Shown: one piece after another, positions 5,656 through 57,160 of the stretch
Layout of the letters: each line of letters begins with the position of its first letter
Position numbering within the stretch: the stretch's first letter is position 1
Notes under the pieces: generated by a model
Told to the model about the DNA's origin: nothing
Databases searched by the model: none
What the model saw: the letters and a program-made list of their open reading frames with translations, nothing else
Assembly (NCBI RefSeq): GCF_036711975.1
Contig: NC_091971.1
Span: forward strand, 18,235,501-18,299,500
Source: Onthophagus taurus
Taxonomy: Eukaryota; Arthropoda; Insecta; Coleoptera; Scarabaeidae
Direction of reading: 5' to 3'
Length of the DNA stretch: 64,000 nucleotides
Program-made: the position numbers and the translations under genes

Positions 5656-6003
5656 TATAAACACCAATTCGTTCGGTTTTGGGCTACGCTACGAATATAA
5701 CGTGGTTTGGCTCTTTTTTTATCCAATTAATTTTTTTTAATCGATTTACTTTGAAATTGTTCTAGGATAACAAAATAGCGGTAGAAAGTCGAAGTCATTA
5801 GAGTTATCTCCGATATTTATAGTTAACTCTTTATTTAAATAATAAATAGAATATTATAAAAACCCACCCTCACCACCCCAGAAGCTAGGTATTATGACTA
5901 TAACATTTTTACCAAATAATATGTAAGGTTTTGTACTTTCTAATTGAACTATGTTCTAAAAGTATTAAAATACAATAATATAATTAACAACATATAAAAA
6001 TGG
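5656..6003. other. Intergenic, nothing recognised
   Basis: AT-rich upstream flank of metallothionein copy 1. The part up to about 5720 is still similar to the flank of copy 2; the rest shows nothing. Confidence 0.4.
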
Positions 6004-6447
6004 TATAGTAGAAACCACGAGAGCTGGCAGTGACAGATCGCTTAGAAATGGTATGAATCAAGATATGGACGTACGACTTAGATTATTTCACCACATACAT
6101 TTAAATGTAGGTTACGTTAGTAATGGAGGTTATATGTCAAACATTGTCAAAAATATTATTTAATGATTTTCCTTTCAAAGAAAACATTTTCGGCTTGTGA
6201 AAACACTGACAGATTCATGACAACGCTCACAAGACGTTTCGATTTGAGGTTATAATTATAGAGTTACATCCCTTAGAAGAACAGACGTACTTTTTCGACG
6301 TGGCCATTTGAATTGGACAGCAGACATATTAAACTAATGCTATCTCTTTCTAACACACATTACTCTCTAGCGGTTTGTGAACTACGTATGGCATTTGTAA
6401 GAGCGGAAAATGATGATTTACTGCCAGCTCTCGTGGCGTCTACTATA
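6004..6447. mobile_element. Short inverted-repeat element (MITE)
   Basis: Terminal inverted repeats of about 28 bp begin TATAGTAGA and contain CACGAGAGCTGGCAGT. They lie at 6004-6031 and, inverted, 6420-6447. The interior is non-coding. The TA at each outer end could be the target duplication. The superfamily is not clear. Confidence 0.65.
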
Positions 6448-6841
6448 TTTGGAATTCTGATGGAATTTTAAAAGTTAAGTCGGAGTTAAATGAAGAATCT
6501 GGTGTTCAGCCTGTTCAATGATAACTAGAGCTAAATCAATTATCGATAAATTTCTCATTAATGTTTTTCAATCCTTCTTATTCCTCATATTTGCGTTAAG
6601 AATTCTTTGAAATTTTAAACCTGGCATGCTTTAATCGTGACGAAATCTGTTACAAATCCTGATTAGTTACACATTTTGATGTTATTATTTTCGTATATAT
6701 TTGACTTAATTATTCCCAATATCTCCAGGATTTTCTAAGGTTGTATATAGTCATAAGTACAGAAAAGAAGTTAAAGGATGTTGATCATTATTATGGTTAA
6801 ATTGGCTTGCAATTTAAATTAATATAATAATAATATAAAAT
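6448..6841. other. Intergenic, nothing recognised
   Basis: AT-rich gap between two transposons. No feature seen. Confidence 0.4.
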
Positions 6842-8481
6842 AATGGTGATTCATTAGCTCTATGACAAACTTTGGCAGATGAAAGGTGATGCGATTCTAA
6901 GGAAAAAATGTTATATGAATATGGGTCCGATTCATTTTGGTTAAAGAGTTACAAGCCTTTGAAAATTTTACACAGTTTAATAGGCAAATGAAAATGTAAC
7001 ATAAAAAATAAGTTTAAAAGTTACAAAAATTGTTCGAAATGTCCGCCTTCAGCTTGAATGCACGCTTCACATCGACGAAGGAAAGATTTGCAACAATCGC
7101 AACAATAATTATGAAACACAAATACAGAGTTGGCTGTGATAACAAAACTGAGTTCTTTATGTCAAACATTTCAATTTACTCTATTCTGTGTGTTTCAAAG
7201 TTTATAATTGTCAGAGTTTTGATCGAAAACGAAAATGCATGTATTTACGACTGAAGAATATGCAGATATTATTTTTGTATACGGGCTTTGTAACGGAAAC
7301 GCTCGGCAAGCAGCAAGAGAATACCTTCGTAGGTTTCCAAATAGACATCAACCTGCCCATACAGTGTTTAATGCATCATTTCGCAGACTGAGAGAAACAG
7401 GTAACCCCGCTCCACTACATTCCGTTCGTCCCCATGATGTGAATGTACAAAATGAAGAACGTGTTATTGATTTAGTACTTGACGACCCTTCAATTAGTAC
7501 ACGGCGTACAGCGAGCATGTTACAAATATCCCAAAGTTTTGTATGGCGTGTATTGAATCGAGAAATGTTACATCCGTTTCATCGCCAAAATGGTCAAGCA
7601 TTACATCCTGGAGATACTGAGCAACGCTTAGCATTTTGCCACTGGATTATTCAGCAACATGCTCAAAATAATAACTTCATTTCCCAAGTTCTGTGGTCTG
7701 ATGAAGCGTGTTTCACCAGGGACTGCATAAATAATTATCATAACGAATATGTGTGGTCCTTGCAAAATCCACATGCAATTAGACCAGGAAGATTTCAGCA
7801 ACGGTTTAGTGTAAACGTTTGGGGTGGCATTTTTAACATTTCTTTGCTACCTGTATGGGTGATAAATGAACGCTTAAATGCAAATATGTACAGAAATTTC
7901 TTGAGACATAACCTTTTCGATTTTATCGACGACGTACCACTTAACATCGTTCAAAATATGTGGTATCAGCACGATAGTGCACCACCACATCGAGGAAGAG
8001 AAGTCATCGCTTGGTTACATGAACATTTTCCAAACAAATGGATTGGCAATGGAGGTCCAATAGTCTGGCCACCACGATCCCCAGATCCAAATCCGCTGGA
8101 TTATTATTTCTGGGGACACATGAAGCAGCTTGTGTACCATGTAGAAATTACTACCCGTCAGCAACTACTGGACAGAATTCAAGATGCAGCTAATAGCATA
8201 CGGAATGATCCAAATATCATACGTCGTGTGATAGAATCTTTACTTCGTCGATGTGAGGCGTGCATTCAAGCTGAAGGCGAACATTTCGAACAATTTTTGT
8301 AATTTTTAAACTTATTTTTTATGTTACATTTTCATTTGCCTATTAAACTGTGTAAAATTTTCAAAGGCTTGTAACTCTTTAACCAAAATGAATCGAACTC
8401 ATATTCATATAACATTTTTTCCTTAGAATCGCATCACCTTTCATCTGCCAAAGTTTGTCATAAAGCTAATGAATCACCCTG
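6842..8481 (+). mobile_element. Autonomous DD41D mariner-type transposon, copy 1
   Basis: About 200-bp terminal inverted repeats bracket one long ORF. The left arm runs from 6842 to about 7043 and the right arm from about 8282 to 8481, sharing GGTGATTCATTAGC and long stretches inward. The last base of the left end and the flanking TA have changed, so the element is not brand new. The repeats begin just outside the ORF, and the inverted repeat includes the end of the coding region. Confidence 0.88.
7235..8302 (+). CDS. DD41D mariner-family transposase with DUF4817-type N-terminus
   Basis: A 355-residue uninterrupted transposase. The N-terminus (FTTEEYADIIFVYGLCNGNA..., about residues 1-60) is the helix-turn-helix type called DUF4817 in insect proteins. 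A second HTH follows (STRRTASMLQISQSFVWRVL, about 90-110). The catalytic core has D1 in WSDEACF, D2 in QHDSAPPH and D3 in PDPNPLDYYFWG. Counting from D2 to D3 gives 41 residues between them, so this is a DD41D enzyme rather than the classical DD34D mariner. It acts by cut-and-paste at TA sites. The start ATG at 7235 fits the homologues below. This copy could still encode an active enzyme; the other three copies in the window are broken. Confidence 0.9.
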   Translation: MHVFTTEEYADIIFVYGLCNGNARQAAREYLRRFPNRHQPAHTVFNASFRRLRETGNPAPLHSVRPHDVNVQNEERVIDLVLDDPSISTRRTASMLQISQSFVWRVLNREMLHPFHRQNGQALHPGDTEQRLAFCHWIIQQHAQNNNFISQVLWSDEACFTRDCINNYHNEYVWSLQNPHAIRPGRFQQRFSVNVWGGIFNISLLPVWVINERLNANMYRNFLRHNLFDFIDDVPLNIVQNMWYQHDSAPPHRGREVIAWLHEHFPNKWIGNGGPIVWPPRSPDPNPLDYYFWGHMKQLVYHVEITTRQQLLDRIQDAANSIRNDPNIIRRVIESLLRRCEACIQAEGEHFEQFL

Positions 8482-10565: not shown

Positions 10566-11399
10566 CACTAGTCTACAAAAAAAAATCATAAAATGTACAT
10601 TTGACGCCACTGTATTTTTCTTATGTAGTTTGGTCCCCTAAACTCAAAAATCACATTTAAAATTTTTTCTATGGATACGTTTTGGAGCTATAAATTTTTT
10701 TTTTTTTTTAGATGTACTTTGACTATTTGAAGCATATCTCGAGTTAGAGATGACCGATCTGGTGGTGCTATTCATCAAATTAAAGAGTATTGTATAGCCA
10801 ATAAATGGTATTAATGCTTATTCCAATCGGTTCGGTAGTTTTAAACTAATGGCCCATAATATGTGAAAAAAGAATTTTTTTAGACAAAATGTGAACCAAA
10901 AATTCATTCAATATCCGTGTAGAGTCGCAGAAAAATTCTTTTTTACTTTCTATGTAAGGTTTGCTCTTTTTAGAAGACAATAAGGTACACAGGATGAGAA
11001 TCGGTGGCGAAATTACCGGAAATTATGATCTTCTATATGTGAGAGCACAGCTTTTTCTTGTACAAGAAATTCCGCGCAAGTATACCGTTAGAAATTTTTA
11101 GGTTTCATGTTTCATACGTTTCTGAGATTTTACGTATAGGAGCTATTCTATTCATCACCGGTGTGAAGACAGCAGTAAAAGATAGCAGTAAAAATTTCCG
11201 ATGATACCCGAACGCCCATAGACGTCCGTAATACCGGACACACGGGGGCCCAATTTTTTCAAACAAAGAAACATTACATTATCAACTTAAGAAGTTAATT
11301 ACAGTATATTAAAAGTAATTAGACAAAATTAAAATATATTTATCACTAATATCAAGGTACAATCAGCAATTTTAATTAAAATAACTGGCTGCAGCTCCC

Positions 11400-12228
11400 G
11401 TATTGGTTCGAAGATCCGAACTAAACTTTATATACGCCTTCTAGGCATGATAAGAAGTATATTTATCGAAAGAAATTCCGCTTGCAAAGGGTCCGCGGGG
11501 GTGAACTACCCCGCAGTAGATTATAATTTACTCTACCGCCCTTATTCGGTTGAAGATCCGAACCAAACTTTACACAAATCTTCTAGACTACATTAGAATC
11601 AAATATCCGTTAATAATTTTCACTTGCATAGGGACCGCGGGGGTGAACTACCCACCAGTAGATTTTAATTACCCCTACCGCCCTTATTCGGTCGAAGATC
11701 CGAACCAAACTTTACACAAATCTTCTAGACTACATTAGAATCAAATATCCGTTAACAATTTTGACTTGCATAGGGACCGCGGGGGTGAACTACCCACCAG
11801 TACATTTTAATTACCCCTACCGCCCTTATTCGGTCGAAGATCCGAACCAAACTTTACACAAATCTTCTAGACTACATTAGAATCAAATATCCGTTAACAA
11901 TTTTCACTTGCATAGGGACCGCGGGGGTGAACTACCCACCAGTAGATTTTAATTACCCCTACCGCCCTTATTCGGTCGAAGATCCGAACCAAACTTTACA
12001 CAAATCTTCTAGACTACATTAGAATCCAATATCCGTTAACAATTTTCACTTGCATAGGGACCGTGGGGGTGAACTACCCACCAGTAGATTTTAAATACCC
12101 CTACTGCCCTTATTCGGTCGAAGATCCGAACCAAACTTTACACAAATCTTCTAGACTACATTAGAATCAAATATTCGTTAACAATTCTCACTTGCATAGG
12201 GACCGCGGGGGTGTACTACCCACCAGTA
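11400..12228 (+). repeat. 142-bp tandem satellite, left arm of foldback element 1
   Basis: The phrase GGGACCGCGGGGGTGAAC recurs at 11631, 11773, 11915, 12057 (GTGG variant) and 12199, exactly 142 bases apart. A diverged edge unit is at 11489 (GGGTCCGCGG). A still more diverged unit can be traced from about 11400 into the terminal repeat. Confidence 0.95.
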
Positions 12229-13932
12229 GAATTTATATTTTTTATCCAAATCTAATTTTTGTTTTCATTGTTTCATTTACTTGTTGGTATTTTTGGCAAA
12301 TTAAACCTAGTAAACCAAAAGATAAGAATGTCATGGCCTTCTAACAAAAACACATGGTTTTTGGAAATCTATGTATGATTTTGATAAATTTGTCAATATT
12401 AGGGAAACTACAATAAATAAGTATATGAATATTTATAGATAATTTGTAGAGAATAAAATTCCCTTCTGGTAGGCTAAAAAAATTTGAGGGGTTCCATTTA
12501 AAATTTTCGATTTTTTTACTGTAGCGAGCTATCAGCGAATTTATCTTTTTATGTTGCTAAGTTATTTATTACTATGTTTATAAAAAACAATTATTATTAT
12601 TAATTTCGTAATAACGTTATCATTAAAATTAAATACATTTTATTACAACAAATTTTTTTATAAAAAAATTAAAATACGCTTTACACGTACCATTGAATAT
12701 GCAGAAACGGTAATATAAACCTGTATGCAGAAACCTGTATACAGGTTTCTGCATACAGGTACTGTAATACTGTAATAAAACAAATGATAATTTATTTGAC
12801 AACATCTGAAGAGTAAACGTACCAATTTAGAGCATTTTCGAATGAAGGTTGCTGAGATATGGGATTATAAAGAGCATAATAATAAAAAGTAGCATATAGT
12901 ATAATTTGCCAAAAGGAAATTCAAATCAAAATAAGTCGAAAACGAAACATGTTAGGTGCTAATAACTTTTATCAAAGTCAACCTATTTTTTGGTTTAGCC
13001 CTGCTTGATTAAAGACTAATTTTAAACGTATTTTCAATTTTTAAAAAACAAGTGAGCCTTGACAGTGAAAGAAAAACTCTTTTTGTGGCAGCTAAAGTAC
13101 CTTTTCTGTTTACAGTACGTGAAAGTGTTACTAAGAAGTTTTGTTCAGAATGAAAAACTTTGATAAAAATCCATATCAAACAAAATTACTTTCCTGTCAA
13201 TGTTAATCTGTCAAACTGTAATTTAGTAAACTTAAAGTGTTTTTTAAATACAATATTAATTAAAATTAATTAAAAGAAGTACTTGTTGGCGTTTAATCAA
13301 AAGATTTCTTACAGCAGGAAGTGTTCACTATACGAGAAAAAATTATGATGAAACTGATTAACTGTCTTCTTTTGTGGGTGAATAAACACTTAATTTTTTG
13401 TGAACATTTTAAGAACGGTTTGTTTATTTCTCCCGAACAATCTGAATCTCAAAACAAGAAATCGTTATAATGTACTATTGACGAAAATAATAAACAATGG
13501 GTTTTATCAAAGTAGGCCGATGATTCCGACAATTTGCATATGGTCATAACTTTTCATTCTGAATAAAATTTCTTAGTAACATTTTAGCATATTGTAAAGT
13601 GAAAAGGTACTTTACCTGACGAACAAGAAGTTTTCGCTTCAGTATCAACACTCACTTTTATATGTTCTAAATAAGTTTTTAACCAAGAAGGGCTAAATCC
13701 CAAAAGATGACAATTAATATCGACAAAATTTTAAATTTTATAAAAGTCGTTTTACCTATCCGGGAACACACTGCATATTAAAATATAAAAAATAAATAGC
13801 TGTTAAGAATATATTCAGCAATGTAAAGCAATGTTGCTACAATAATTATTTGAGTGAATAGGCGATGAAATTTCACCCTAACCACCAAAGTAGTTTTATA
13901 ATATTAAAATAACATACATTCCAAAACCGTTG
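12229..13932. other. Centre of foldback element 1
   Basis: AT-rich and non-coding. It contains a 42-bp perfect palindrome (12719-12760). It also has a diverged inverted-repeat pair, about 12940-13250 against 13490-13740, sharing for example TTTAGCCCTGCTTG and CAAGAAGGGCTAAA. This looks like the remains of a further short inverted-repeat element. No gene is seen. Confidence 0.55.
12719..12760. repeat. 42-bp perfect palindrome
   Basis: The half-site ACCTGTATGCAGAAACCTGTA is followed at once by its exact reverse complement, with no loop. Confidence 0.9.
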
Positions 13933-16140
13933 AAAATTGTTAACGGATATTTGATTCTAATGTAGTCTAGAAGATTTGTGTAAAGTTTGGTTCGGATCTT
14001 CGACCGAATAACGGCGGTAGGGGTAATTAAAATCTACTGGTGGGTAGTTCACCCCCGCGGTCCCTATGCAAGTGAAAATTGTTAACGGATATTTGATTCT
14101 AATGTAGTCTAGAAGATTTGTGTAAAGTTTGGTTCGGATCTTCGACCGAATAAGGGCGGTAGGGGTAATTAAAATTTACTGGTGGGTAGTTCACCCCCGC
14201 GGTCCCTATGCAAGTCAAAATTGTTAACAGATATTTGATTCTAATGTAGTCTAGAAGATTTGTGTAAAGTTTGGTTCGGATCTTCGACCGAATAACGGCG
14301 GTAGGGGTAATTAAAATCTACTGGTGGGTAGTTCACCCCCGCGGTCCCTATGCAAGTCAAAATTGTTAACAGATATTTGATTCTAATGTAGTCTAGAAGA
14401 TTTGTGTAAAGTTTGGTTCGGATCTTCGACCGAATAACGGCGGTAGGGGTAATTAAAATCTACTGGTGGGTAGTTCACCCCCGCGGTCCCTATGCAAGTC
14501 AAAATTGTTAACGGATATTTGATTCTAATGTAGTCTAGAAGATTTGTGTAAAGTTTGGTTCGGATCTTCGACCGAATAAGGGCGGTAGGGGTAATTAAAA
14601 TCTACTGGTGGGTAGTTCACCCCCGCGGTCCCTATGCAAGTCAAAATTGTTAACGGATATTTGATTCTAATGTAGTCTAGAAGATTTGTGTAAAGTTTGG
14701 TTCGGATCTTCGACCGAATAAGGGCGGTAGGGGTAATTAAAATCTACTGGTGGGTAGTTCACCCCCGCGGTCCCTATGCAAGTCAAAATTGTTAACGGAT
14801 ATTTGATTCTAATGTAGTCTAGAAGATTTGTGTAAAGTTTGGTTCGGATCTTCGACCGAATAAGGGCGGTAGGGGTAATTAAAATTTACTGGTGGGTAGT
14901 TCACCCCCGCGGTCCCTATGCAAGTCAAAATTGTTAACGGATATTTGATTCTAATGTAGTCTAGAAGATTTGTGTAAAGTTTGGTTCGGATCTTCGACCG
15001 AATAAGGGCGGTAGGGGTAATTAAAATCTACTGGTGGGTAGTTCACCCCCGCGGTCTCTATGCAAGTGGAAATTGTTAACGGATATTTGATTCTAATGTA
15101 GTCTAGAAGATTTGTGTAAAGTTTGGTTCGGATCTTCGACCGAATAACGGCGGTAGGGGTAATTAAAATCTACTGGTGGGTAGTTCACCCCCGCGGTCCC
15201 TATGCAAGTGAAAATTGTTAACGGATATTTGATTCTAATGTAGTCTAGAAGATTTGTGTAAAGTTTGGTTCGGATCTTCGACCGAATAACGGCGGTAGGG
15301 GTAATTAAAATCTACTGGTGGGTAGTTCACCCCCGCGGTCCCTATGCAAGTGAAAATTGTTAACGGATATTTGATTCTAATGTAGTCTAGAAGATTTGTG
15401 TAAAGTTTGGTTCGGATCTTCGACCGAATAAGGGCGGTAGGGGTAATTAAAATCTACTGGTGGGTAGTTCACCCCCGCGGTCTCTATGCAAGTGGAAATT
15501 GTTAACGGATATTTGATTCTAATGTAGTCTAGAAGATTTGTGTAAAGTTTGGTTCGGATCTTCGACCGAATAACGGCGGTAGGGGTAATTAAAATCTACT
15601 GGTGGGTAGTTCACCCCCGCGGTCCCTATGCAAGTGAAAATTGTTAACGGATATTTGATTCTAATGTAGTCTAGAAGATTTGTGTAAAGTTTGGTTCGGA
15701 TCTTCGACCGAATAAGGGCGGTAGGGGTAATTAAAATGTACTGGTGGGTAGTTCACCCCCGCGGTCCCTATGCAAGTCAAAATTGTTAACGGATATTTGA
15801 TTCTAATGTAGTCTAGAAGATTTGTGTAAAGTTTGGTTCGGATCTTCGACCGAATAAGGGCGGTAGGGGTAATTAAAATCTACTGGTGGGTAGTTCACCC
15901 CCGCGGTCCCTATGCAAGTGAAAATTATTAACGGATATTTGATTCTAATGTAGTCTAGAAGATTTGTGTAAAGTTTGGTTCGGATCTTCAACCGAATAAG
16001 GGCGGTAGAGTAAATTATAATCTACTGCGGGGTAGTTCACCCCCGCGGACCCTTTGCAAGCGGAATTTCTTTCGATAAATATACTTCTTATCATGCCTAG
16101 AAGGCGTATATAAAGTTTAGTTCGGATCTTCGAACCAATA
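13933..16140 (-). repeat. 142-bp tandem satellite, right arm of foldback element 1
   Basis: The inverted form of the left-arm unit. The GCGGTCCCTATGCAAG phrase recurs from 14057 to 15903 in 142-base steps, with a diverged edge unit (GCGGACCCTTTGCAAG) at 16045, so 15 units. Units fall into subtypes by small differences: TCAAAATT, GTGAAAATT or GTGGAAATT, and AACGGCGG or AAGGGCGG. Confidence 0.95.
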
Positions 16141-17042
16141 CGGGAGCTGCAGCCAGTTATTTTAATTAAAATTGCTGATTGTACCTTGATATTAGTGATA
16201 AATATATTTTAATTTTGTCTAATTACTTTTAATATACTGTAATTAACTTCTTAAGTTGATAATGTAATGTTTCTTTGTTTGAAAAAATTGGGCCCCCGTG
16301 TGTCCGGTATTACGGACGTCTATGGGCGTTCGGGTATCATCGGAAATTTTTACTGCTATCTTTTACTGCTGTCTTCACACCGGTCTATTCATCCCAATCT
16401 TTCGATTTAAAATAATTTCAAGATGGCTGTCACATCCAGTGTACCGGAAGTAGCCTACAACTTCGATATTTTAAATGGAAGACTGCAATTTTTATTGGAT
16501 ATTTGAATTGAAAAACGGTTTTTTTAATCAAAAATCACAATACAAAATTCACTTAAACACCTTGGAGAGCCGCAAAAATTCCGTCTTATTTTTTACATAA
16601 GGTTTGTACTTTTACAATAGGAAGATGCCCAGGTCTTTCCTGTTTCTATATTTTTCGGTATTCCTAACGTATATTGCCGTTTTACTCATCAGTGAATTAA
16701 GTTTACTTGAAAAAGGATATTTGAGGTACCAGTGCATTTTATTATTCTTGGAAAACTATCGGTTTTAGAACAAAGGTTCTTCGCACACAGGTTTGTCCCA
16801 TCTTTTTTTACCAATTTGAACAATATTAAAATAAATACGTTTCTCGTGGACAAATGAAAAGGTTGTTTCCCGGAATGTTAAGAAAAAAGTGAGCATCATA
16901 AAAACCCCCACTGTACCGTAAGGGAAGGTTTCGTGGAGACTAAGATTGCTAAAGTTATTCATTCGAGTTCCATATTCAGCGTTAAACAGTTGTTCACAAA
17001 TTGTATCGTATAATATAGTTTAATTGCATGCTTGATTATAAA

Positions 17043-19022: not shown

Positions 19023-20184
19023 GACTTGTGCATACTATTTTATAAATACCTAAGTGTTACAATCAAAATAAACTGAATGAAGAACTGTATTTCGTGCTTT
19101 TTGAGAAAAATTACAGAAACAGGAAAAGCTGGATGTTGGCACTTTGACTCACAAATGATCATAATTTCGATATTTCTCTGTAGGCTTTGGTCGTAAATAC
19201 TGTCTTCCTATTGTAAAAGTACAAACTGTATGTAAAAAATAAGACGAAATTTTTGAGTTTCTCTTTTTGCGAGTGAATTTTGTATTGTCATTTTTGATTA
19301 AAAAAACCGTTTTCAATTCAAATATCCAATAAAGATTGCAGCATTCCGTTTAAAATAACGAAATTGTAGGCTACTTCCGGTACACTAGATGTGGCAGCCA
19401 TCTTGAAATTATTTTAAATCGAAGGATTGGGATGAATAGCTCCTACACGTAAAATCTCAGAAACGTATGAACATGAAACCTAAAAATTTCTAACGGTCTA
19501 GTTGCGCGGAATTTTTTGTACAAGAAAAAGCTGTGCTCTCACATATAGAAGATCATAATTTTTGGTAATTTCTCCACCGTTTCTCATCCTGCGTACCTTA
19601 TTGTCTTCTAAAAAGAGCAAACTTTACGTAGAAGGTAAAAAAGAATTTTTCTGCGACTCTACACGGATATTGAATGAATTTTTGGTTCACATTTTGTCTA
19701 AAAAAATCCTTTTTTCACATATTATGGGCCATTGTTTTAAAACTACCGAACCGATTGGAATAAGCATTAATACCATTTATTGGCTATACAATACTCTTTA
19801 ATTTGATGAATAGCACCACCAGATCGGTCATCTCTAACTCGAAATATGCTGCAAATAGTCAAAGTACCTCTAAAAAAAAAAAAAAAAATCATAGCTCCAA
19901 AACGTATCCATAGAAAAAATTTTAAATGTGATTTTTGAGTTTAGGGGACCAAACTACATAAGAAAAATACAGTGGCGTCAGATGTACATTTTATGATTTT
20001 TTTTTTGTAGACTAGTGTAATTATTCTTTCAAACTGAGACAATATCTTTAATGTTTATTTTTACATCTTTTATACTTCTTGATTTTCTGCCAATTCAATC
20101 CGATTGAAATAATGTAAAAATGAAATGTCTCGTGAATAGAGATTCTACATCGAATCTTACTTAGGATATCCTGTCGATCTAACT

Positions 20185-28132: not shown

Positions 28133-29843
28133 CAGGGTGTCCCGCAACGATTGTACAAAACTGCATCAGCGTATGCTATGATCAAAAATAAACAAAAAAA
28201 GCCTTATAAACATAGGTTCGAAAATGGACCATTTTCGAGATATTCAAAGATTTAGTTTCATAAGTTGATATTGTTAACATCATGAATTTAAATTTGTTTT
28301 TATAATAATTAAGTCGTTACTATGATTACGATAAGTTGTCTAATCAAAAAAAAATAATAATACTTCACAAAATTATTATTTTACTATTTAATTTAATAAA
28401 ACTATTAAGTATGGCTCCTATTAATTACTCTAAGGAAGAGATGGCGGATATGGTGTATTGTTACGGACTAGCTGATGGAAATGCGTCGTTAGCAGCTCGT
28501 CATTACGCGCAAAGGTTCCCGAACAGACGATTGCCTAATAGTCACACCTTTAGCAGACTATTTCTCAGATTAAAAGAAACGGGAAGCGTAATCCACAGCC
28601 ATTCCACGGAGAGACATTACACAAGGCCGGTGGAATTAGAAGAAGCAGTTTTGAGAAGAGTCGATGAAAATACCTCAACCAGCATTAGAAGAATTTTTGC
28701 ACAAGAAAACATTAACAAAACAACCATTCACCGCATTTTAAGGGAGCAGTTGCTTTATCCTTATCATTACAACACCGTTCAAGCTCTAACAGAAAATGAT
28801 GGCGAAAAAAGAGAGATTTTTTGTAGGTGGGCCATACAGGAAGAGGTAGTAAACATCGACTTTCCCATAAACATTGTATTTACGGATAAAGCAACATTTA
28901 CTCAAAGCGGAATTTTTAATATTCATAATGCGCACGTTTGGAGCGATGAAAATCCCCATGCAATACTAGAAACTCATCATCAGTGGCGATTCAGTGCTAA
29001 TGTATGGGCTGGAGTTATAGGTGATCAGTTATGAGGTCCATTTTTTCTTCCAAAGAGATTGACAGCCGATGCCTACATACATTTTTTACAAAATGACCTT
29101 ACAGAGGCATTTGATGAATTACCTCAACAAATTCTAGAAGATTGCTACTTTATGCACGATGGAGCACCAGCACATTATGCACGCGCTACTCGAGCATACT
29201 TAAATAACAGATTTGGCAATAAGTGGATTGGCCGAGGAGGTCCTGTCCCGTGGCCACCTCGTTCACCAGATTTAAATCCGTTAGATTTTTGGTTTTGGGG
29301 ACATTTAAAACAAATTGTTTATTCTGAAGACGTTCAAAATGTGCAGGATTTGAAGAATAAAATTAGTAACGCATTTGACACAGTAAAACAAATTCCTGGT
29401 ATCTTTGAACGCATTAGAAGTTCATTTAGAAAACGTATCCGTTTGTGTTTAGAAGCAAATGGTGCGTATATTGAACATTTATTATGACATGAATCTTTTC
29501 CAATTTGTTAAATATTCGTTGTTTTTATGCTGGTTGAACGATTTTCTTCGACAATCTTTGTTACTTGTTTTGTTAAATTATTAATGAACTGTGTTAATTA
29601 ACTTAATATTATCTTATTATTTATTAAACTTTATCTTAACCATCGTAACCATGGTTATCATATAATTACTGCATCTAAATCGTTAGAATTAATGATGTTT
29701 ACAATAGGTCAGCTTATGAAACTAAAACTTTGAATATCTCGAAATTGGCCCATTTTCGGATCTATGTTTATTAGACTTTTCTTGTCTGTTTTCGATCAGA
29801 GAATACGCTGATGCAGTATTGCACAATCGTTGCGGGACACCTG
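28133..29843 (+). mobile_element. DD41D mariner-type transposon, copy 2
   Basis: The ends CAGGGTGTCCCGCAACGATT and the inverse CAGGTGTCCCGCAACGATT are flanked by TA (28131-28132, 29844-29845). The inverted repeats extend about 150 bp with scattered mismatches. One transposase gene fills the inside. Confidence 0.88.
28411..29487 (+). pseudogene. DD41D transposase, copy 2, one in-frame stop
   Basis: ATG at 28411 (MAPINYSKEEMADMVYCYG) aligns with the start of copy 1. The single defect is TGA at 29032-29034; the frame continues unchanged beyond it to TGA at 29485. The N-terminal DUF4817-type HTH is present. D1 is in FTDKATF (Lys replaces the usual Glu after the Asp), D2 in MHDGAPAH and D3 in PDLNPLDFWFWG, with 41 residues between D2 and D3. 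The protein would be about 358 residues without the stop. This is a different lineage from copy 1, recently inactivated. Confidence 0.88.
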
Positions 29844-32090: not shown

Positions 32091-33164
32091 AACCATTTCT
32101 TTGCCAGTTACTTTTTAACTCATTATTAATAAATATTTATATAACTACACTAACTTTTGTGTTATTTAAATAAAGTAAGGATAAAAAACGTTTTCTGTAG
32201 GATTATGAAAATTATTAGCGAAAATATATTTTCTACCCCAAACTTCTAACCCTTGTTCTTACAATAGTACTAACGTATAAAAAAATCATGGTCGTAAATT
32301 GCACAAAAATCGGTTTTTTTCGCAAAAAAATTTAATTTTTGGGGTGGTTAGGGTAGTTAACCCCAGCCACCCCTAAATGTCGTATAGGGTTTATTTTACA
32401 GCGTAAATCTTAATTTACATCTAATTTATGCTTTTCTTCAAAATATTGTTCAAAAGTGTAACAGTTTATCACATTATTCTTAAGGAAAGGGGTTATCTAT
32501 CATACCCCGTAACTTTGCATGGGATGGTCAGACGCAAATAAGAAAAAACACGTCATTAATATTTTTAAACGTACTATAAGGACACATAATATCGCCAAAA
32601 TCGACAGTTTAGTTTTTGAAATATTCCAAAAAACTAGGGGTAGTTTACCCCCTGAAGCCATCAGATATATGTCTGATACATCAATGGAAAGCTCTTTGAA
32701 AATGAATATCAGTTTATATTTACCACATTTCGATAGCTATTTTCGTTTTCAGCCTATAAGCAAATATATATATTTTGCCCCGATTTCCAACCCTTATAAC
32801 TCGCCCCAGGGGCTTTATTAGCACGTATAAAAAAATACGTAAACCTTATTTTTGGCTATACTATCGCTGTACCAAATTTCAACAAAATCGGTGAGGGACA
32901 GTTCTGATACTTCCCTTGTTAGTAAACCTAGGTCCTAAAAGCAACCGGTGTGAAGACAGCAGTAAAAATTTCCGATGATACCCGAACGCCCATAGACGTC
33001 CGTAATACCGGACACACGGGGGCTCAATTTTTTCTAACAAAAAAACATTACATTATCAACTTAAGAAGTTAATTACAGTATATTAAAAGTAATTAATATA
33101 TTTATCACTAATATCAAGGTACAATCAGCAATTTTAATTAAAATAACTGGCTCCAGCTCCCTTA

Positions 33165-34230
33165 TTGGTTCGAAGATCCGCATCAAACTTTATATACGCC
33201 TTCTAGACATGATAAGAAATATATTTATCGAAAGAAGTTCCACTTGCAAAGGGTCCGCGGGGGTGAACTACCCCGCAGTAGATTATAATTTGCTCTACCG
33301 CCCTTATTCGGTCAAAGATCCGAACCAAACTTTACACAAGTGATCTAGACTACCTTAGAATCAAATATCCGTTAACAATTTCCACTTGCATAGGGACCGC
33401 GGGGGTGAACTACCCACCAGTAGATTTTAATTACCCCTACCGCCCTTATTCGGTCGAAGATCCGAACCAAACTATACACAAATCTTCTAAACTACATTAG
33501 AATCAAATATCCGTTAACAATTTCCACTTGCATAGGGACCGCGGGGGTGAACTACCCACCAGTAGATTTTAATTACCCCTACCGCCCTTATTCGGTCAAA
33601 GATCCGAACCAAACTATACACAAATCTTCTAAACTACATTAGAATCAAATATCCGTTAACAATTTCCACTTGCATAGGGACCGCGGGGGTGAACTACCCA
33701 CCAGTAGATTTTAATTACCCCTACGGCCCTTATTCGGTCCAAGATCCGAACCAAACTTTACACAAATCTTCTAAACTACATTAGAATCAAATATCCGTTA
33801 ACAATTTCCACTTGCATAGGGACCGCGGGGGTGAACTACCCACCAGTAGATTTTAATTATCCCTACCGCCCTTATTCGGGCGAAGATCCGAACCAAACTT
33901 TACACAAATCTTCTAAACTACATTAGAATCAAATATCCGTTAACAATTTCCACTTGCATAGGGACCGCGGGGGTGAACTACCCACCAGTAGATTTTAATT
34001 ATCCCTACCGCCCTTATTCGGTCGAAGATCCGAACCAAACTTTACACAAATCTTCTAAACTACATTAGAATCAAATATCCGTTAACAATTTCCACTTGCA
34101 TAGGGACCGCGGGGGTGAACTACCCACCAGTAGATTTTAATTACCCCTACCGCCCTTATTCGGGCGAAGATCCGAACCAAACTTTACACTAGTGATCTAG
34201 ACTACCTTAGAATCAAATATCCGTTGACAA
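33165..34230 (+). repeat. 142-bp tandem satellite, left arm of foldback element 2
   Basis: GGGACCGCGGGGGTGAAC occurs at 33393, 33535, 33677, 33819, 33961 and 34103, with the diverged edge unit at 33251. All are 142 bases apart. Confidence 0.95.
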
Positions 34231-34272
34231 TTTTAAGACATTCTAAAATAATTAAAAAAAAAATTAATATTA

Positions 34273-34524
34273 TTATGAGTCATCTGAATTATTGGGATCA
34301 TTACATTTGAGATAAACTTGTTTTCTAATCAGATGCTTTTTGCACCTAAATTCATAGCACTCATCACATGTTTTTGTTGTATAATTATTTTTAGCCCTAC
34401 CACATAATTGGCATCGTTCTCTGATTTTTCTTGCATGTGGATCTGTTTGCTGCGATGTCGATGGAGTGTCTATATCTGTTGGTTCTTGGAGCTTTCCCTT
34501 TTGGGTTTTAACTACCCTGTTGGT
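34273..34524 (-). pseudogene. piggyBac-like C-terminal cysteine-rich domain
   Basis: An open minus-strand frame of about 83 codons ends at TAA 34273-34275. After a polar linker (PTDIDTPSTSQQTD) it has ERCQLCGRA, then TCDECYEFRCKKH, a C-x2-C...C-x2-C-x4-C-x3-H order like the C-terminal zinc domain of piggyBac transposases. The catalytic domain is not present. The assignment to piggyBac is by cysteine pattern. Confidence 0.45.
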
Positions 34525-34815
34525 TCAGGGTAGTTATTTGGCTTCTTTCAATCAAAAATCCGTTCATCTTCAATGCCAAATTTTTTAGAAAATCTTTTCT
34601 AAATTACGGCTTTGCTTTTGTTTTGTCGCTGAAACTGTACAAAATGTGGGCATTTATTCCTGCCATATTTATTGTTGAAAAAAGAGGATTCAAATTCGAA
34701 TTTATTTAGTATAAATGTTAACAATATTTATATAAATACGTCAGCAGTCTTAACTTTAGTACTTAACAAAAAAATCATCGAACATCCCGTTGTTTACAGA
34801 ACAAAAACATTAACA

Positions 34816-35220
34816 TTAACCACCAAAGTCACGCAGGTGTATGGTGTCGCACAAATAGTTAGAGTACGAATAGTAGGCCTTCCGAATTAAAAAAGTTTTA
34901 ATTTTATTCTTGAACAGTTCAGGAGGCAACCGAGCAATGTCGTTCGGTATTTTGTTATAGAATTTTACTCAAAGAAATTTAAAGTGGCACTGACTTCGAC
35001 CTAGTCTACAAAAGGCCGGTCTCAGTTGGGTACCGTTTCTAGTCCGATATTTATGTAAAGTGTCATGACTAATAAAGTCGTCGAGATTTCGCCTTACAAA
35101 TATTACACATTCCAAAATGTACAATGACGGAAAGGTCAGTATATTATGGTTTGTAAAGGACCTACGGCAATCATCCATGTATGTTAGCGAGTTTATTATG
35201 TCACGAACCTCAACAAATGT
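34816..35220 (-). pseudogene. LINE ORF2 C-terminal tail
   Basis: The minus-strand frame reads ILTFPSLYILECVIFVRRNL, then HDTLHKYRTRN, then VKFYNKIPNDIARLPPE and a final stop TAA at 34816-34818. These phrases are standard in the last 150 residues of insect non-LTR retrotransposon polyproteins. One in-frame TGA lies between FKFL and VKFYNK. It is inside the centre of foldback element 2. Confidence 0.75.
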
Positions 35221-35489
35221 TGCTTGATCAATGGAAAACCCACAATCAGCAACATTAATTGTTTACAAAAGGCAATTCAAGAGGTACCTTAATAAAGTAA
35301 TCATTAACATCATTTGGATCGAATTTGGCTTTAATTTTGTCTATTTTGTTTCACGCGTTTTTTATTAATTATTTCCCATATAATTTTACCCGAAAGGATA
35401 AAGTCGACCTCCTGGTTTTTCTACTTACTGTATAGGTTTGACACATTTGACCATTTGTGTCAACGCCCCCCTTCGTATTGGTAATTTAA

Positions 35490-35900
35490 ATCTACCGGTA
35501 GCTAGTTTACCCCCGCGGTCCCTATGCAAGTGGAAATTGTTAACGGATATTTGATTCTAATGTAGTTTAGAAGATTTGTGTAAAGTTTGGTTCGGATCTT
35601 CGCCCGAATAAGGGCGGTAGGGGTAATTAAAATCTACTGGTGGGTAGTTCACCCCCGCGGTCCCTATGCAAGTGGAAATTGTTCACGGATACTTGATTCT
35701 AATGTAGTCTAGATCACTTGTGTAAAGTTTGGTTCGGATCTTTGACCGAATAAGGGCGGTAGAGCAAATTATAATCTACTGCGGGGTAGTTCACCCCCGC
35801 GGACCCTTTGCAAGTGAAATTTCTTTCGATAAATATATTTCTTATCATGTCTAGAAGGCGTATATAAAGTTTGGTGCGGATCTTCGAACCAATAAGGGAG
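35490..35900 (-). repeat. 142-bp tandem satellite, right arm of foldback element 2
   Basis: Inverted units have GCGG anchors at 35515, 35657 and 35799, the last being the diverged edge form (GCGGACCCTTTGCAAG), as in foldback element 1. Confidence 0.95.
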
Positions 35901-36239
35901 CTGGAGCCAGTTATTTTAATTAAAATTGCTGATTGTACCTTGATATTAGTGATAAATATATTAATTACGTTTAATATACTGTAATAAACTTCTTAAGTTG
36001 ATAATGTAATGTTTTTTTGTTCGAAAAAATTGAGCCCCCGTGTGTCCGGTATTACGGACGTCTATGGGCGTTCGGGTATCATCGGAAATTTTTACTGCTG
36101 TCTTCACACCGGTCTAAAAGCAGTGGTTTCGAAGATACAAGCAATTCCAATATTATTAGTGAATGAAACGTCTTGGTCTTCAAATGTTTATTTCATTGGG
36201 GAAAATACAAACAGAACATAAAAACTGAACACAAAATGC

Positions 36240-46959: not shown

Positions 46960-48836
46960 CAGGGTGATTTATAACATACGGAGGAGACTAAATGGGTAGA
47001 TACTTGAGGTCAAACTGAAGAGATTTTCTTAATAATGTTTTGTTAAAATCTTAATAGTTACATAGATATCGCATGTTAATTTTTTAAATAAGTTAGCGTC
47101 AACTTTTGAGAACCGCTGATATTCACTAAAGAACAATTAAAATACTTGTCAACGCCATCCTCATTTTTGAAGGAGCTGACAAAGTAGACAATTTAATTGT
47201 TTAGTTTTAATACGTAATTTATGAAAAGAAATAATAGATGTTAATTTATGAAACGGATAATAATAATGTTTTAAATGCAAAATTACAAAATCTCTAAAAC
47301 AAGAAAATAACAATAATAATAATAATAATAATCTCTTTATAACATATGTTCAAAGTGCTGTCCTTTCATTTCGACGCACAACTGCGCACGACGAATCCAA
47401 TTTAACGATAATCGTGGAAATCGTGGACGTATGTCCTCTGTAGCGGCAGTGATGCGATGTCGTAGTTCGTCGATTGTATTAACCTCGGTGGCATATACTC
47501 TATCCTTCATGAATCCCCATAAAAAAAGTCCAATGGGTTAAGATCGGGACTACGTGGTGGCCATGGAATAGGTCCACCTCAACCAATCCATTTTTGCCGA
47601 AAAGCATTATCGAGGAAATCTCGTACATTATGACTAAAATGTGCAGGACAACCGTCGTGCATAAACCACATCTCACGTCGCATAAGTAGCGGAATATCTT
47701 CCAGGAGTACTGGCAGATTTTCTTGTAAAAACTGTAAATAAGAAGTTCCATTAAGAGTTCCTGGTAATGCGAAAGGTCTTATTAACGTATTTTTCACAAT
47801 TCCCGCCCATAGATTCACTCTGAATCGTTGTTGAAAAGAGCCTTGACGAATAACGTGTGGATTTTCGTCCGACCACACATGGGAATTGTGAACATTTAGA
47901 ACACCATTTCTGGTAAAACAGCATTCATCCGTTACCAGTATACTGTCCGCAAAATCTGCTTCTCTGTTGGTACCATTTAGTAGCCACTCGCAAAATTGCA
48001 ACCGCAAAGGATAGTCAGCGGGAGTCAGTCTTTGCACTTTTTGAAAATGATAGGGGTGTAAACCGTTACTTTTCAACGTACGCCAAACAAAATTCTGGGA
48101 TACCTCGAGTTGGTGAGAAATTTGACGAGTACTCGTGCTTCGATCCGCTTCCACAATTTCTAGAATTTCTTCTTCCACATTCACTCCATGTCTGTTTAGT
48201 CTACCGCCACCAAGACATTTCTTAGGTTGCCAATTTCCTGTCTCTCTTCCCCGCTGGATTAACCGAAGAAAAATGTTTTCAGTAGGGATCTGTCGATTTG
48301 GATATCGTTCTAAATACAGACGCCTTGCGTGTGCAGCGTTTCCTCCAGCAGCTCCATAAATAATAACCATATCTACGTATGCCTCGTTACTGTAAATTGC
48401 CATTGTACTTTTTGATTTGTAATAGTTCTACTCATGTTCTAATTTTGACGTTAAATGACATTGATTATTAAAATTAAATGACATGTCCGTTGCTAGGTAA
48501 CCAAGTCAACTGGATTGACAGCAATAAAAACATGGTATCAGCGGTTCTCAAAAAACAAACACCAGTTTTTTAAATAGCCGTAACTGCCATATTACAAAGA
48601 TTTTATTATTGGTGCTAATCAGGCATTGCTTAAGTAACCCCGAAATATTCGCAGTTTGAATTTAAACGTAGTGTAATACCGTATATCGTAAGAAATACTG
48701 GGCAATTAATTCAACTTTAATGCTCTATATCTTTGTGATTATTACGTTGTAGTCAAAACATTATTAAGAAAATATCTTCAGTTTGGCCCCTAGTACTTGC
48801 TCTTTTAATCTGCTCCGTATGTTATAAATCACCCTG
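46960..48836 (-). mobile_element. DD41D mariner-type transposon, copy 4
   Basis: The ends CAGGGTGATTTATAACATAC and its inverse are present; TA remains on the right (48837-48838), and the left flank has mutated. Similarity between the arms goes on in blocks for more than 100 bp, with a second shared block GAGAACCGCTGATA further in. An AAT microsatellite lies at about 47310-47332. Confidence 0.85.
47337..48403 (-). pseudogene. DD41D transposase, copy 4, stop and frameshift
   Basis: Starts at 48403 (MAIYSNEAYVDMVIIYG) and would end at TAA 47337-47339, about 355 residues. D1 is in VTDECCF, D2 in MHDGCPAHF and D3 in SPDLNPLDFF, with D2-D3 spacing 41. Two defects: TGA at 47579-47581 in place of the usual Arg codon in IGRGGP, and one base missing from a T run near 47521-47527. 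Otherwise the coding sequence is well kept, so inactivation is recent. Confidence 0.88.
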
Positions 48837-52625: not shown

Positions 52626-55600
52626 TTATACTAAAAAGTAAACCTGAAACAAATATTTTTTTAAAAATTTGTAAGTTTAGATTGATAATTTACCTCTTTA
52701 TTCGTATCGTAATAACATTTGTGTGTTTGATAAACAGTATCGCAAGGACTTGATCCCTCTAAACACAGTAAAGAAAGTTAATACAAAAAATTATAAGAAT
52801 TATTTATGAAAATATTACTTATAACACCACATTTTCTCATAATCGGAGCCGCATCGTCGGCCATTTCCTCAGGCAAAAGCGCTATAGCCGCTTCTACATC
52901 AATAACACCATCATCATCAACCTAAAATACCCATGTAAAAGAAATGACACTAAAAGAAATATAAGTTAAAAGGATTATAGTCGTTTTTACTCACGATGGC
53001 CATTTCATCCATTACACATTTTATGTAGCATTTTAGTAGATTCTCATCCGGGAAACCCTCTTTTTTTTGAACAGTAGTAATAAATGCTAAAAAAATATAT
53101 AGTTTTAAAATTTTGATGATATTGACATCCGGAAAGGATTTTTCTTTTGTGGGCCAGGGGTCCAGTGATCCGACTTTCATAGGATACTATGAGGACCCTC
53201 GGAAACTTGGATTACTTTAAATATATCACAGGCAAAGTCATTACCACCTTTATTATAGTAGAATGCCTGCAGATGTAACATATTTAGACAACAATGAGTC
53301 GGTAGCTAGCAATGATACCAGGTCAATTGGTAAATATATTATATGTTTCTTAAATAGACCTGCAAATAGTTTCTGTCGTTGATAGAGTATCTTGGACAGG
53401 TGAAAAAGATTTAATGCCAATTTTAAACAGATAGGTGGGACATAGCGCATGTCCTATGCTCAGTCTAGTAATGAGACTATAGAACTGGCGTGATACAAAG
53501 GGATCTTTTTTGAACCATGGAATTTTTTGTACCGTGGGTTGGCAAATAGCGTACCTAATCCCTTTAATTGAGCTGCTTCTAGTCCACTCTTGATCGCATT
53601 CATCAATATCTTGCTGATATAATTCTTTTCCATAGATGTTTACTCTGTAACCCTCCTCTTGGTGTCTCCTGTTCACCAATTCGTCAGCTTTTTCATTTCC
53701 ACTCACTCCCATATACCGTGTCATATCAATATCTTTTATGCCAAGAATAATAGGCTTAAAGCTCTATTGATAAAAGGATGTAATTTCTTTTCGAGGTTTG
53801 TGTTCTTAATACGCTCGAGTGATGGAATCTGTTATAATCTTTATAATCTCTTAAGATGGCAAAAGGACTTATATTCCAAGAAATGGATTTTATACGAATT
53901 TTTAAAAGTTAATCGGCGAAAATTGCAAAATTCGAAAAAGTGACGATCATCTCACGAACTGAAAGTGATTTTTCAAAACGGCTTGTTGCATTAAAAAGAG
54001 GATACTTTAATTAATAATTGGTGATATTTCCACAAGGATCTTTCAAGAAATTAATTTTATACCGCATTTTGAAAATTATCGTTCAAAATAGCAACATCGA
54101 AAATTTGATCAAAACTTCAAATATTGTTTTTTCAAAAACTAAAAGTTATTCTTCAAAAAGGGTTGGTTCGTTGGAAAGAGGACACTTTTATTAACACTTT
54201 GGGAAATTTTCATACTAATATTCCAAGAAATGGATTTTATACGAATTTTTAAAACTTAATTAGCGAAAATTGCAATATTCGAAAAAATTATCGATTATTT
54301 CAAAAATTTATTTCTCAAGAACTGAAAGTGATATTTCAAAACGGCTTTTTGCATTAAAAAGAGGATACGTTAATTAATAATTGGTGTTATTTAAACAAGG
54401 TTCCTTCAAGAAATTAATTTTATAGCGAATTTTGAAAATTATCGATGGAAATTGCAACATCGAAAATTTGATCAAAATTTCAAATATTGTTTTTTCAAAA
54501 ACTAAATGTTATTTTTCAAAAAGGGTGGGTTCATTGGAAAGAGGACATTTTTATTAACACTTTGGGAAATTTTCGTACTAACATTCCAAGAAATGGATTT
54601 TATACGAATTTTTAAAACTTAATCTGCGAAAATTGCAAAATTCGAAAAAATTGTCGATCATTTCAAAAATTTATTTCTCAAGAACTGAAAGTGATTTTTC
54701 AAAACGGCTTTTTGCATTAAAAAGAGGATACGTTAATTAATAATTGGTTATATTTCCACAAGGTTCCTTCAAGAAATTAATTTTATAGCGAATTTTGAAA
54801 ATTATCGATGGAAATTGCAACATCGAAAATTTGATCAAAATTTCAAATATTGTTTTCTCAAAAACTAAAAGTTACTTTTCAAAAAGGGATAGTTCATTGG
54901 AAAGAGGACACTTTTTTTAACAGTTTGGGAAATTTTCATACTAACATTCCAAGAAATGGATTTTATACGAATTTTTAAAACTCAATCGGCGAAAATTGCA
55001 AAATTAGAAAAAATTGTCGATTATTTCAAAAATTTATTTCTCAAAAATTGAAAGTGCTTTTTCAAAACGACTTTTTGCATTAAAAAGAGGATAGTTTAGT
55101 TAATAATTGGTGATATTTCCACAAGGATCCTTCAAGAAATTAATTTTATAGCGAATTTTGAAAATTATCGATGAAAATTGCAACATCGAAAATTTTATCA
55201 AAACTTCAAATATTGTTTTCTCAAAAACTAAAAGTTATTTTTCAAAATGGGTTGGTTCATTGAAAAGAGGACACTTTTATTAACACTTTGGGAAATTTTC
55301 ATATTCATATTCCAAAAAATGGATTTTATACGAATTTTTAAAACTTAATCGGCGAGAATTGCAAACTTCGAAAAAATTGTCGATCATTCCAAAAATTTAT
55401 TTCTCAAGAACTGAAAGTGATTTTTCAAAACGGCTTTTTGCATTAAAAAGAGGATACGTTAATTAATAATTGGTGATATTTCCACAAGGTTCCTTCAAGA
55501 AATTAATTTTATAGCGAATTTTGAAAGTTATCGATGAAAATTGCAACATCGAAAATTTTTTCAAAATTTCAAATATTGTTTTCTCAAAAATTAAAAGTTA

Positions 55601-57160
55601 TTTTTCAAAAAGGGTTAGTTCATTGGAAAGAGGACACTTTTATTAACACTTTGGGAAGTTTTCATACTCATATTCCAAGAAATGGATTTTATACGAATTT
55701 TTAAAACATAATCGACGAAAATTGCAAACTTCGATAAAATTGTCGATCATTTCAAAAATTTATTTCTCAAGAACTGAAAGTGATTTTTCAAAACGGGGTT
55801 TTGCATTAAAAAGAGGATACTTTAACTAATAATCGAAAGTGATAACAGCGACAGTTCTGTTAGTACCCTGATATAAATAAAGTTATATTCAATGAAAAAA
55901 GTCCTACTGGGGTTGAACTTGATTATTATCTGCAATGTCCAACACCTAAAAGAGGTACTAATTCCTGTGAATGGTGGAGTACTAAGTAATAGGTTTTTAA
56001 TATCCGGCTTTGGCCGGTAACTATCCGGTATCCGGCCGGATTTTAAAAAATGGCCGGGTAGGCCGGATACCGGATAGTTGCCTGATATCCGTTCCACCAC
56101 TAGTCCTTATATATACAATGTGCATCCGGTCATGTGTTCTTTATGTATTGCTAAATCCTACCATACTAATCATTTCACTATTTGATCTTAAGCATTTATA
56201 TGATCCGGGGACAAATGTTATCATCGGTACCAGCATTCTGACGTTATATTCCATGGTGTGCATATCATGCATTTGTTTTTTGTATAAATTTGGGATAGCA
56301 GGCTTGAGTTTTGAGTACATATTAGCAATCAAAGCTCAATTCTTTGCCAACGGCCGTGAGATGAAGATTTGCGAAATCCTATCTACTCTGTTGATCACTA
56401 ATTTAGTACACAACAGTCTTACTCTAACTTCAATAGATGTTTCACCTAGTTCAATCGTTAACGCATCTTTTGGAGAAGATCTCAGTGCACCCAGTACAGC
56501 CCTATAGGCTTCATAGCACGATACCTGAAGTTTATTCATCATAACTTTAGGAATAGGCATTAGCATCCACAAACCATGTTCATTTCTGGATTAGATTATT
56601 GCTCTATATAGGGTACTTAATATTATAGGATTAGGTTATTAGGAATACCTCCTTTGCAGGCCTTAACTATTGTATTGACTTATCCTTTCCAACTTAATTT
56701 CCCACAGGGCCACCATCATATCCAATGATTAGACGATGTATATTTCTTTTTCTAGTGAAAAGAACTGCTTTTGATTTTTCTAGTGATATCTCAAGTTGTT
56801 GTTTGCCTGAAAAGCATTTTACGACCTCTAGTGCTCGATTCATATGATTTCGCAGTTTCAATGTTAGCAGAAGTACAATATAATACTAAATCATCAGCAT
56901 ACAAATAAACTTCAAATTTGAGTAAAAACCCTTTTTAAGGTTATATTAAGCGTCAAAATAACTAAAAATATTACCTTCCACTGCTGCATCACCTATTTGT
57001 TCCACACAATCATTATGTAATTGTTTGGCTAATTCTTCCATTTCTTCTGACATTGCCTAAATATTTATAATTACATATAATTTATATTTTTGTATCATTA
57101 ACTTACTTGAATATTTGGAAAAAGTAAACACAAAATTAAAGAAAAGCACAGTTTAATCAT
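52626..57160 (-). CDS. Classic odorant-binding protein
   Basis: A secreted carrier of small hydrophobic ligands, typically in the sensillum lymph. Six exons on the minus strand: 57107-57160, 56975-57056, 52995-53086, 52828-52921, 52694-52758, 52626-52643. All introns are GT-AG with consistent phases; the protein is 134 residues. Residues 1-18 are a signal peptide (MIKLCFSLILCLLFPNIQ). The mature part has the six conserved cysteines: NDCVEQ, KCYIKC (C2-x3-C3), RKCEG, and CDTVYQTHKC (C5-x8-C6), the classic OBP spacing. Intron 2 (53087-56974) is 3.9 kb and full of repeats, while the others are 51-76 bp, except the 73-bp and similar small ones between exons 3-6. The last exon codes for only five residues (VYFLV). 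Confidence 0.93.
53250..53724 (-). pseudogene. LINE RNase H fragment in the OBP intron
   Basis: The minus strand begins RYMGVSGNEKADELVNR, the end of the RNase H domain (GH.G..GNE.AD) of I- or R1-like LINEs, and goes on with DECDQEWTRSS and RLSIGHALCPTYLFKI, the usual C-terminal region. No functional element remains. Confidence 0.8.
53800..55835. repeat. 363-bp tandem satellite made of two related ~182-bp halves
   Basis: The phrase AAATGGATTTTATACGAATT recurs at 53881, 54228, 54591, 54954, 55317 and 55680. The last four steps are exactly 363; the first is 347. Each 363-bp unit has two related halves, one with CTCAAGAACTGAAAGTGATT and one with CTCAAAAACTAAAAGTTATT, so it is a dimer. AT-rich, non-coding, inside intron 2 of the odorant-binding protein gene. 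Confidence 0.93.
55990..56101 (-). mobile_element. hAT-like transposon end with GC-rich inverted repeat
   Basis: Read on the minus strand from 56101 the sequence starts TAGTGGTGGAACGGATATC, the style of hAT termini. Within it AACTATCCGGTATCCGGCC is followed about 25 bases later by its exact inverse. No transposase or second end was found. Confidence 0.5.
56120..56940 (-). pseudogene. LINE reverse transcriptase fragment in the OBP intron
   Basis: The minus strand reads FEVYLYADDLVLYCTSANIE (about 56920-56860), the YADD active site. Then, in another frame, 56572-56336 reads LQVSCYEAYRAVLGALRSSP and IELGETSIEVRVRLL, the post-RT region of Jockey/I-like elements. Stops and shifts occur throughout. 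Confidence 0.75.

Follow-up and report, generated by a model that had tools for sequence, protein, structure and literature searches.

A satellite-armed foldback transposon, very probably of the Rehavkus type, and its relatives in the genome of the beetle Onthophagus taurus

The window analyzed here, a 64,000-nucleotide stretch of the Onthophagus taurus genome, contains two members of one transposon family (Table 1). The first, referred to as W1, is a complete foldback transposon. A single mobile unit with precise ends, a perfect 9-bp target-site duplication, and two opposed arrays of the same 142-bp unit had been predicted at this position, and our analysis confirms that observation, with exact coordinates. 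The terminal letters of W1 are ACCGGTG, and its arms (11157 to 12235 and 15306 to 16384) are 99% complementary over 1,079 nt. Tandem arrays with a period of 142 were computed at 11481 to 12235 and 13931 to 16060, and counting units by anchors agreed with the predicted 6 left and 15 right units in opposite orientation. The interior contains no open frame longer than 71 amino acids (aa). A paralogous sequence on the minus strand (19180 to 19640) matches the W1 target sequence without interruption and thus shows the target before insertion; relative to this empty site, the left flank of W1 (11143 to 11156) contains five additional bases, CTATT, next to the duplication. The second element has the same termini as W1, its own 9-bp duplication, and an interior that matches one end of the interior of a coding copy found elsewhere in the genome. 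Both window elements are noncoding derivatives. Elsewhere in the window lie a separate tandem array (53950 to 55833; period, 363 bp, with a subperiod of ~180; 5.2 copies) and mariner-like transposase frames, judged by eye, at 7223 to 8302, 28309 to 29487, and 47579 to 48427.

Table 1. Positions of the two family elements and associated features (window coordinates unless a contig end is named)
Feature	Position	Strand	Details
Left target-site duplication, W1	11148..11156	.	9 bp, CTATTCATC
Foldback element W1, type A	11157..16384	.	5,228 bp; termini ACCGGTGTGAAG / CTTCACACCGGT
Left terminal domain, W1	11157..11396	+	~240 bp, outside the array
Left array, W1	11397..12235	+	142-bp units; 6 anchors; outermost unit diverged
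Interior, W1	12236..13930	.	frames all ≤71 aa
Right array, W1	13931..16144	-	142-bp units; 15 anchors; inverted relative to left array
Right terminal domain, W1	16145..16384	-	
Right target-site duplication, W1	16385..16393	.	9 bp, CTATTCATC
Paralogous empty target site	19431..19439	-	single CTATTCATC in sequence matching both W1 flanks
Left duplication, second element	32935..32943	.	CTAAAAGCA
Second family element, type B	32944..36113	.	3,170 bp; 7 + 3 units
Right duplication, second element	36114..36122	.	CTAAAAGCA
TTGGG telomere-like repeat	contig ends C1 (both), C2 start, C6 end, C7 end		

The expectation of a mobile element with precise ends was borne out across the genome. Allowing up to three mismatches, a 24-base terminus occurs at least 69 times in the 290.8-Mb assembly in many dispersed copies, and the reversed control occurs 0 times. 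The original prediction had proposed looking for 9-bp duplications in other copies. We read 26 terminus pairs, 25 of which have perfect 9-bp duplications, while one (L020) matches at 8 of 9 positions. Since L032 and L033/L034 share one site, a duplicated locus, duplications are perfect at 24 of 25 independent sites. When left and right 9-mers were paired between different copies, none of 600 cross-pairs reached 8 of 9, and the duplications are not due to chance. The remaining 17 termini comprise 16 unpaired ends, 3 of which were read (L035, L048, and L049), and one extra right end in L031 (C2:28668129-28671765), where the right end and its flanking 9 bases are present twice, 593 bp apart.

The 25 joined elements hold 442 units of 142 bp, from 1 to 81 per arm, with no counted unit in 3 of the 50 arms (L020 right, L030 left, and L031 right). 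When each array is followed up to its first break, the distance between consecutive units is exactly 142 in 388 of 395 cases. The first and last units of the arrays are the most diverged. The 81-unit arm contains repeated runs of identical units with their order kept, the trace expected of unequal exchange or slippage. The interiors of W1, L015, and L028 are 99.4 to 99.7% identical, with 6/15, 10/14, and 19/14 units, respectively (arms as on the plus strand), indicating that unit number changes faster than sequence. Homogenization between the two arms of one element was considered and rejected, as an element's own other arm was the nearest in only 3 of 22 tests. Two private variants qualified as markers of arm exchange, and neither was present in both arms. 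The two terminal domains of an element (first 240 bp) are more alike than re-paired domains in a shuffle test on 22 elements (L020, L030, and L031 left out), with 0 of 10,000 shuffles as low; likewise, in 11 of 11 elements, array units are closer to those of their own other arm than to foreign units on average. In 19 of 22 tests, a foreign arm is nevertheless nearer than the element's own second arm, and we take this likeness to reflect subfamilies rather than exchange.

A coding copy of the family lies on C3 (1634305-1654128). This 19.8-kb element has 12 and 81 units, a perfect 9-bp duplication, and arms that are 98.5% identical over 1,925 bp. Its minus strand contains a 977-aa frame and, in frame upstream of it, a 257-aa frame, with one stop between them; the C6 copy (L048) is open where the C3 copy has the stop but is interrupted elsewhere. 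The 977-aa protein has a Ulp1/C48 domain (Pfam Peptidase_C48; E value, 2e-10) and a PHD-like finger (PF00628; E value, 0.0015) that, at 19.0 bits, falls below the cutoff of 24; the finger of the L059 relative (21.8 bits) is likewise below the Pfam cutoff. Residues D241, D314, C361xxH364, and E526 are the same in all four proteins of an alignment that includes one near-identical pair. This D-D-CxxH-E pattern marks MULE/hAT-like enzymes. The 977-aa protein matched no NCBIfam profile, and viral contigs yielded no relative of it.

Pieces at least 80% identical to the 977-aa protein occur at seven loci in the genome. Six lie between termini of the family or within 10 kb of one (L013, L030, L048, and L049 by reading; C8:18894030 and C8:15748906 by distance alone), and the seventh (C8:18958459) has no terminus nearby. 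One end of the coding interior is found again in type B interiors, and both ends are found again in L024, a pattern expected of internal deletion. No match to the interior of the coding copy was obtained with type A interiors (the W1 type), and L019 holds pieces of both type A and type B interiors. We therefore infer the enzyme that moves type A copies from the shared termini and the duplication length, which point to the 977-aa protein.

Other frames inside family copies were assigned differently. A DUF7869 frame in L019 (5060 to 6007 in C5:9435521-9444990) was rejected as the transposase, being a member of a multicopy family (535 first-look candidates in the genome, 150 of them scored) and lying between 142-bp array fragments of the right arm, so that it appears nested. 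L020 (C6:19372817-19382152), the copy whose right arm lacks a counted unit, carries on its minus strand (5668 to 7818) a 716-aa frame similar to the solved transposase 6pqn (E value, 2.5e-99). We take 6pqn to be Transib and the frame to be a nested element. Two interior frames of L013 (2285 to 2722 and 3219 to 3470) gave no significant Pfam match; by eye, they presumably represent a reverse transcriptase piece and a piggyBac-like cysteine-rich piece.

Collectively, the D-D-CxxH-E core, the PHD-like finger, the 9-bp duplication, and the repeat-built ends make W1 very probably a nonautonomous copy of a Rehavkus-type (MULE-related) DNA transposon, with Rehavkus compared by its published description. 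The long inverted tandem-repeat arms with a flanking target-site duplication are those of a foldback (FB-like) element, and Dfam groups NOF/foldback elements with Rehavkus. Rehavkus elements, reported from arthropod or annelid hosts, are described as having 9-bp duplications, a PHD-finger transposase, and a repeat array near the terminal inverted repeat (TIR), and they serve as an outgroup or early relative of MULEs (PMC6446971). The present family shares the 9-bp duplication (24 of 25 independent copies) and the adjoining array, with 142-bp arrays in both arms beside the terminal domains. Its PHD-like finger scores below the Pfam cutoff. A C48 domain goes unmentioned in the portion of the Rehavkus description available (PMC6446971). 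In Tribolium castaneum, the inverted termini of Rehavkus-1_TC reportedly contain a satellite of 164 bp (PMC10218199), compared with a 142-bp unit and up to 81 units per arm here. The unit is far longer than the short FB repeats, as had been pointed out, but such length has precedents in Rehavkus-1_TC and in Tetris.

The original prediction had named a MULE-type foldback. The mobile foldback, its 9-bp duplications, and a coding relative were all found, but the transposase of that relative has no Pfam MULE domain and fits the MULE-related Rehavkus elements instead. It would still be conceivable that W1 belongs to the canonical MULE or Phantom foldbacks and that a transposase with a MULE domain, encoded elsewhere, moves it: MULEs usually create 9-bp duplications, 16 matches to the MULE profile PF10551 exist in the genome, and Tm1 of Meloidogyne, a foldback of the Phantom type, likewise has duplications of 9 bp (PMC3169594). 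We consider this unlikely, because none of the 16 PF10551 matches lies within the elements read and because pieces of the D-D-CxxH-E/C48 protein occur in or near copies with these termini. The 977-aa frame itself gave no PF10551 match up to an E value of 1, and neither did two of its distant relatives. Tm1 differs further in its 13- to 15-bp repeat and its Phantom-type MULE transposase with a FLYWCH domain (PMC3169594).

The probable Rehavkus-type transposase has relatives with arms of their own. Among 56 genome matches to the transposase, we examined the flanking sequence at nine distant loci, which represent eight lineages. Inverted arms were found with a 141-bp unit (L056, 23 and 11 units, cut by the ends of the stretch; L057, 9 and 12 units), with a 162-bp unit (L058, 18 and 16 units, again limited by where the stretch ends), and with a 176-bp unit (L060, 4.5 and 4.1 units). 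In L059, a short array (143 bp) lies on one side only, and four of the eight lineages (L061 to L064) have no arms in the stretch read; there, similarity is fragmentary or frames are short, the longest being 670 aa (L064). The three long transposase proteins are 24 to 32% identical in amino acid sequence and have the same motifs, and the C48 domain is present in all four armed families. Homology of the units between families was not detected, with 10 of 10 unit pairs within the shuffled range.

Two of these families could be followed through their termini. For the 176-bp family, we counted 121 + 121 terminus matches (control, 0), and its duplications are 9/9 at 7 of 9 sampled sites and 8/9 at 2, with 9/9 also in L060, the one copy in which interior and arms were read. 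The 141-bp family has 36 terminus matches; its duplications are 9/9 at 4 of 9 sites, 8/9 at 2, and absent at 3, and 0 of 72 cross-pairs reach 8/9. The three sites lacking a duplication may be recombinants or old copies. From these comparisons of sequence, satellite arms look like a trait of the lineage in which the repeat itself is replaced over time; we found no earlier comparison of several satellite-armed families within one genome among the open-licence papers searched. A bolder idea, which we raise tentatively and hold to be rather doubtful, is that satellite ends are a rule in this lineage, with inverted arrays of roughly nucleosome-sized units (141, 142, 162, and 176 bp) forming part of the working transposition end and the unit sequence freely replaced. 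If so, a new satellite would arise with every family, and the lineage would be a lasting source of new satellite DNA.

The original prediction had also held that the element carries and can spread satellite DNA, to be compared with long free arrays of the same unit. A genome search with two 142-bp units gave 266 matches, of which 150 were listed, and 39 of 84 candidate places were scored, so that the counts are a lower bound. Of the 150 listed matches, paired elements account for 146 and L046 for the other 4; the array of L046 runs on into element interior while the outer end is absent from the stretch read, which identifies L046 as a truncated copy. Thus, no free array of the 142-bp unit was found outside element copies among the 150 listed matches (of 266), and the satellite has not so far been seen apart from the transposon; rare or unassembled free arrays may still exist. 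These data bear on whether a preexisting free satellite was captured by a transposon that now spreads it. The unit length is typical of satellites, arrays reach 81 units, and a search that scored 39 of 84 candidate places is blind to unassembled satellite. We nevertheless regard capture as quite unlikely, since all 150 listed matches, including those in truncated L046, fall in element copies and since three related families with arms of unrelated repeats would require capture to have happened repeatedly. A 142-bp satellite of Tenebrio molitor (PMC13192020), compared by its description, was not taken as a relative, with unit length being the only link. That the inverted arms are an assembly artifact is hardly credible: long inverted repeats are difficult to assemble, but 25 independent copies have different flanks and unit numbers, 24 of them have perfect duplications, and a paralogous empty site exists.

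For the probable Rehavkus-type element, we propose that the transposase of the large copies would recognize the ends, cut, and reinsert coding and noncoding copies alike, creating the 9-bp duplication. A cut-and-paste mechanism driven by this DDE enzyme agrees with the sequence features, and such a mechanism is established for related elements. Unit number would then shift through unequal exchange or slippage within each array, as suggested by the recurring blocks of identical units and by the near-identical interiors with different unit numbers. The array itself probably contributes to the function of the end, most likely by supplying the transposase with repeated binding or spacing DNA, given that four families keep the design with wholly different unit sequences. 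A role as binding DNA is also suggested by Galileo, whose internal repeats are said to carry secondary binding sites (PMC3573991). The periods of 141 to 176 bp are near nucleosome size; satellites of 140 to 180 bp are reported to be common in beetles anyway (PMC10218199).

Galileo (Drosophila, P superfamily) resembles the present family in its long TIRs, whose internal tandem repeats (~210 bp) undergo expansion and contraction, and it differs in its 7-bp duplications, P-type transposase, and two or three repeat copies (PMC3573991). Tetris of Drosophila virilis is also alike, being a foldback with 8- to 10-bp duplications and ~220-bp tandem repeats in its TIRs, in arrays that reach 66 copies (PMC4079207). 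In the part of the Tetris report available, a transposase-coding copy was not found and repeat-only arrays are described (PMC4079207), whereas here a coding copy is present and no array lies outside the element among the 150 listed matches. The original prediction had proposed looking for a relative that encodes a MULE transposase; a coding copy was found, and its transposase lacks PF10551. With it, a satellite-armed foldback is now tied to a coding copy, the link missing in that account of Tetris. That the unit derives from the terminal domain, an origin suggested for Tetris, was rejected here, as just 7- to 12-base matches were found (best E value, 0.09).

How new satellite DNAs originate is an open question. 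This one genome holds four related satellite-armed families with unrelated units, at 1 to 81 units per arm in the 142-bp family, and three of the four have long open transposase frames. The recurrence of the design in a single genome makes two ideas testable, namely that the arrays are functional and hence kept and that they seed satellites.

Finally, the ends of the Onthophagus contigs carry a tandem repeat of their own: (TTGGG)n is present at 5 of the 10 ends read, and 2 of the 10 consist of N (Table 1). For Tenebrionoidea, TCAGG telomeres are reported (PMC8233369), and the TTGGG motif is reported for scarabaeoid beetles (PMC8233369) and for a neuropteran (PMC12564400).
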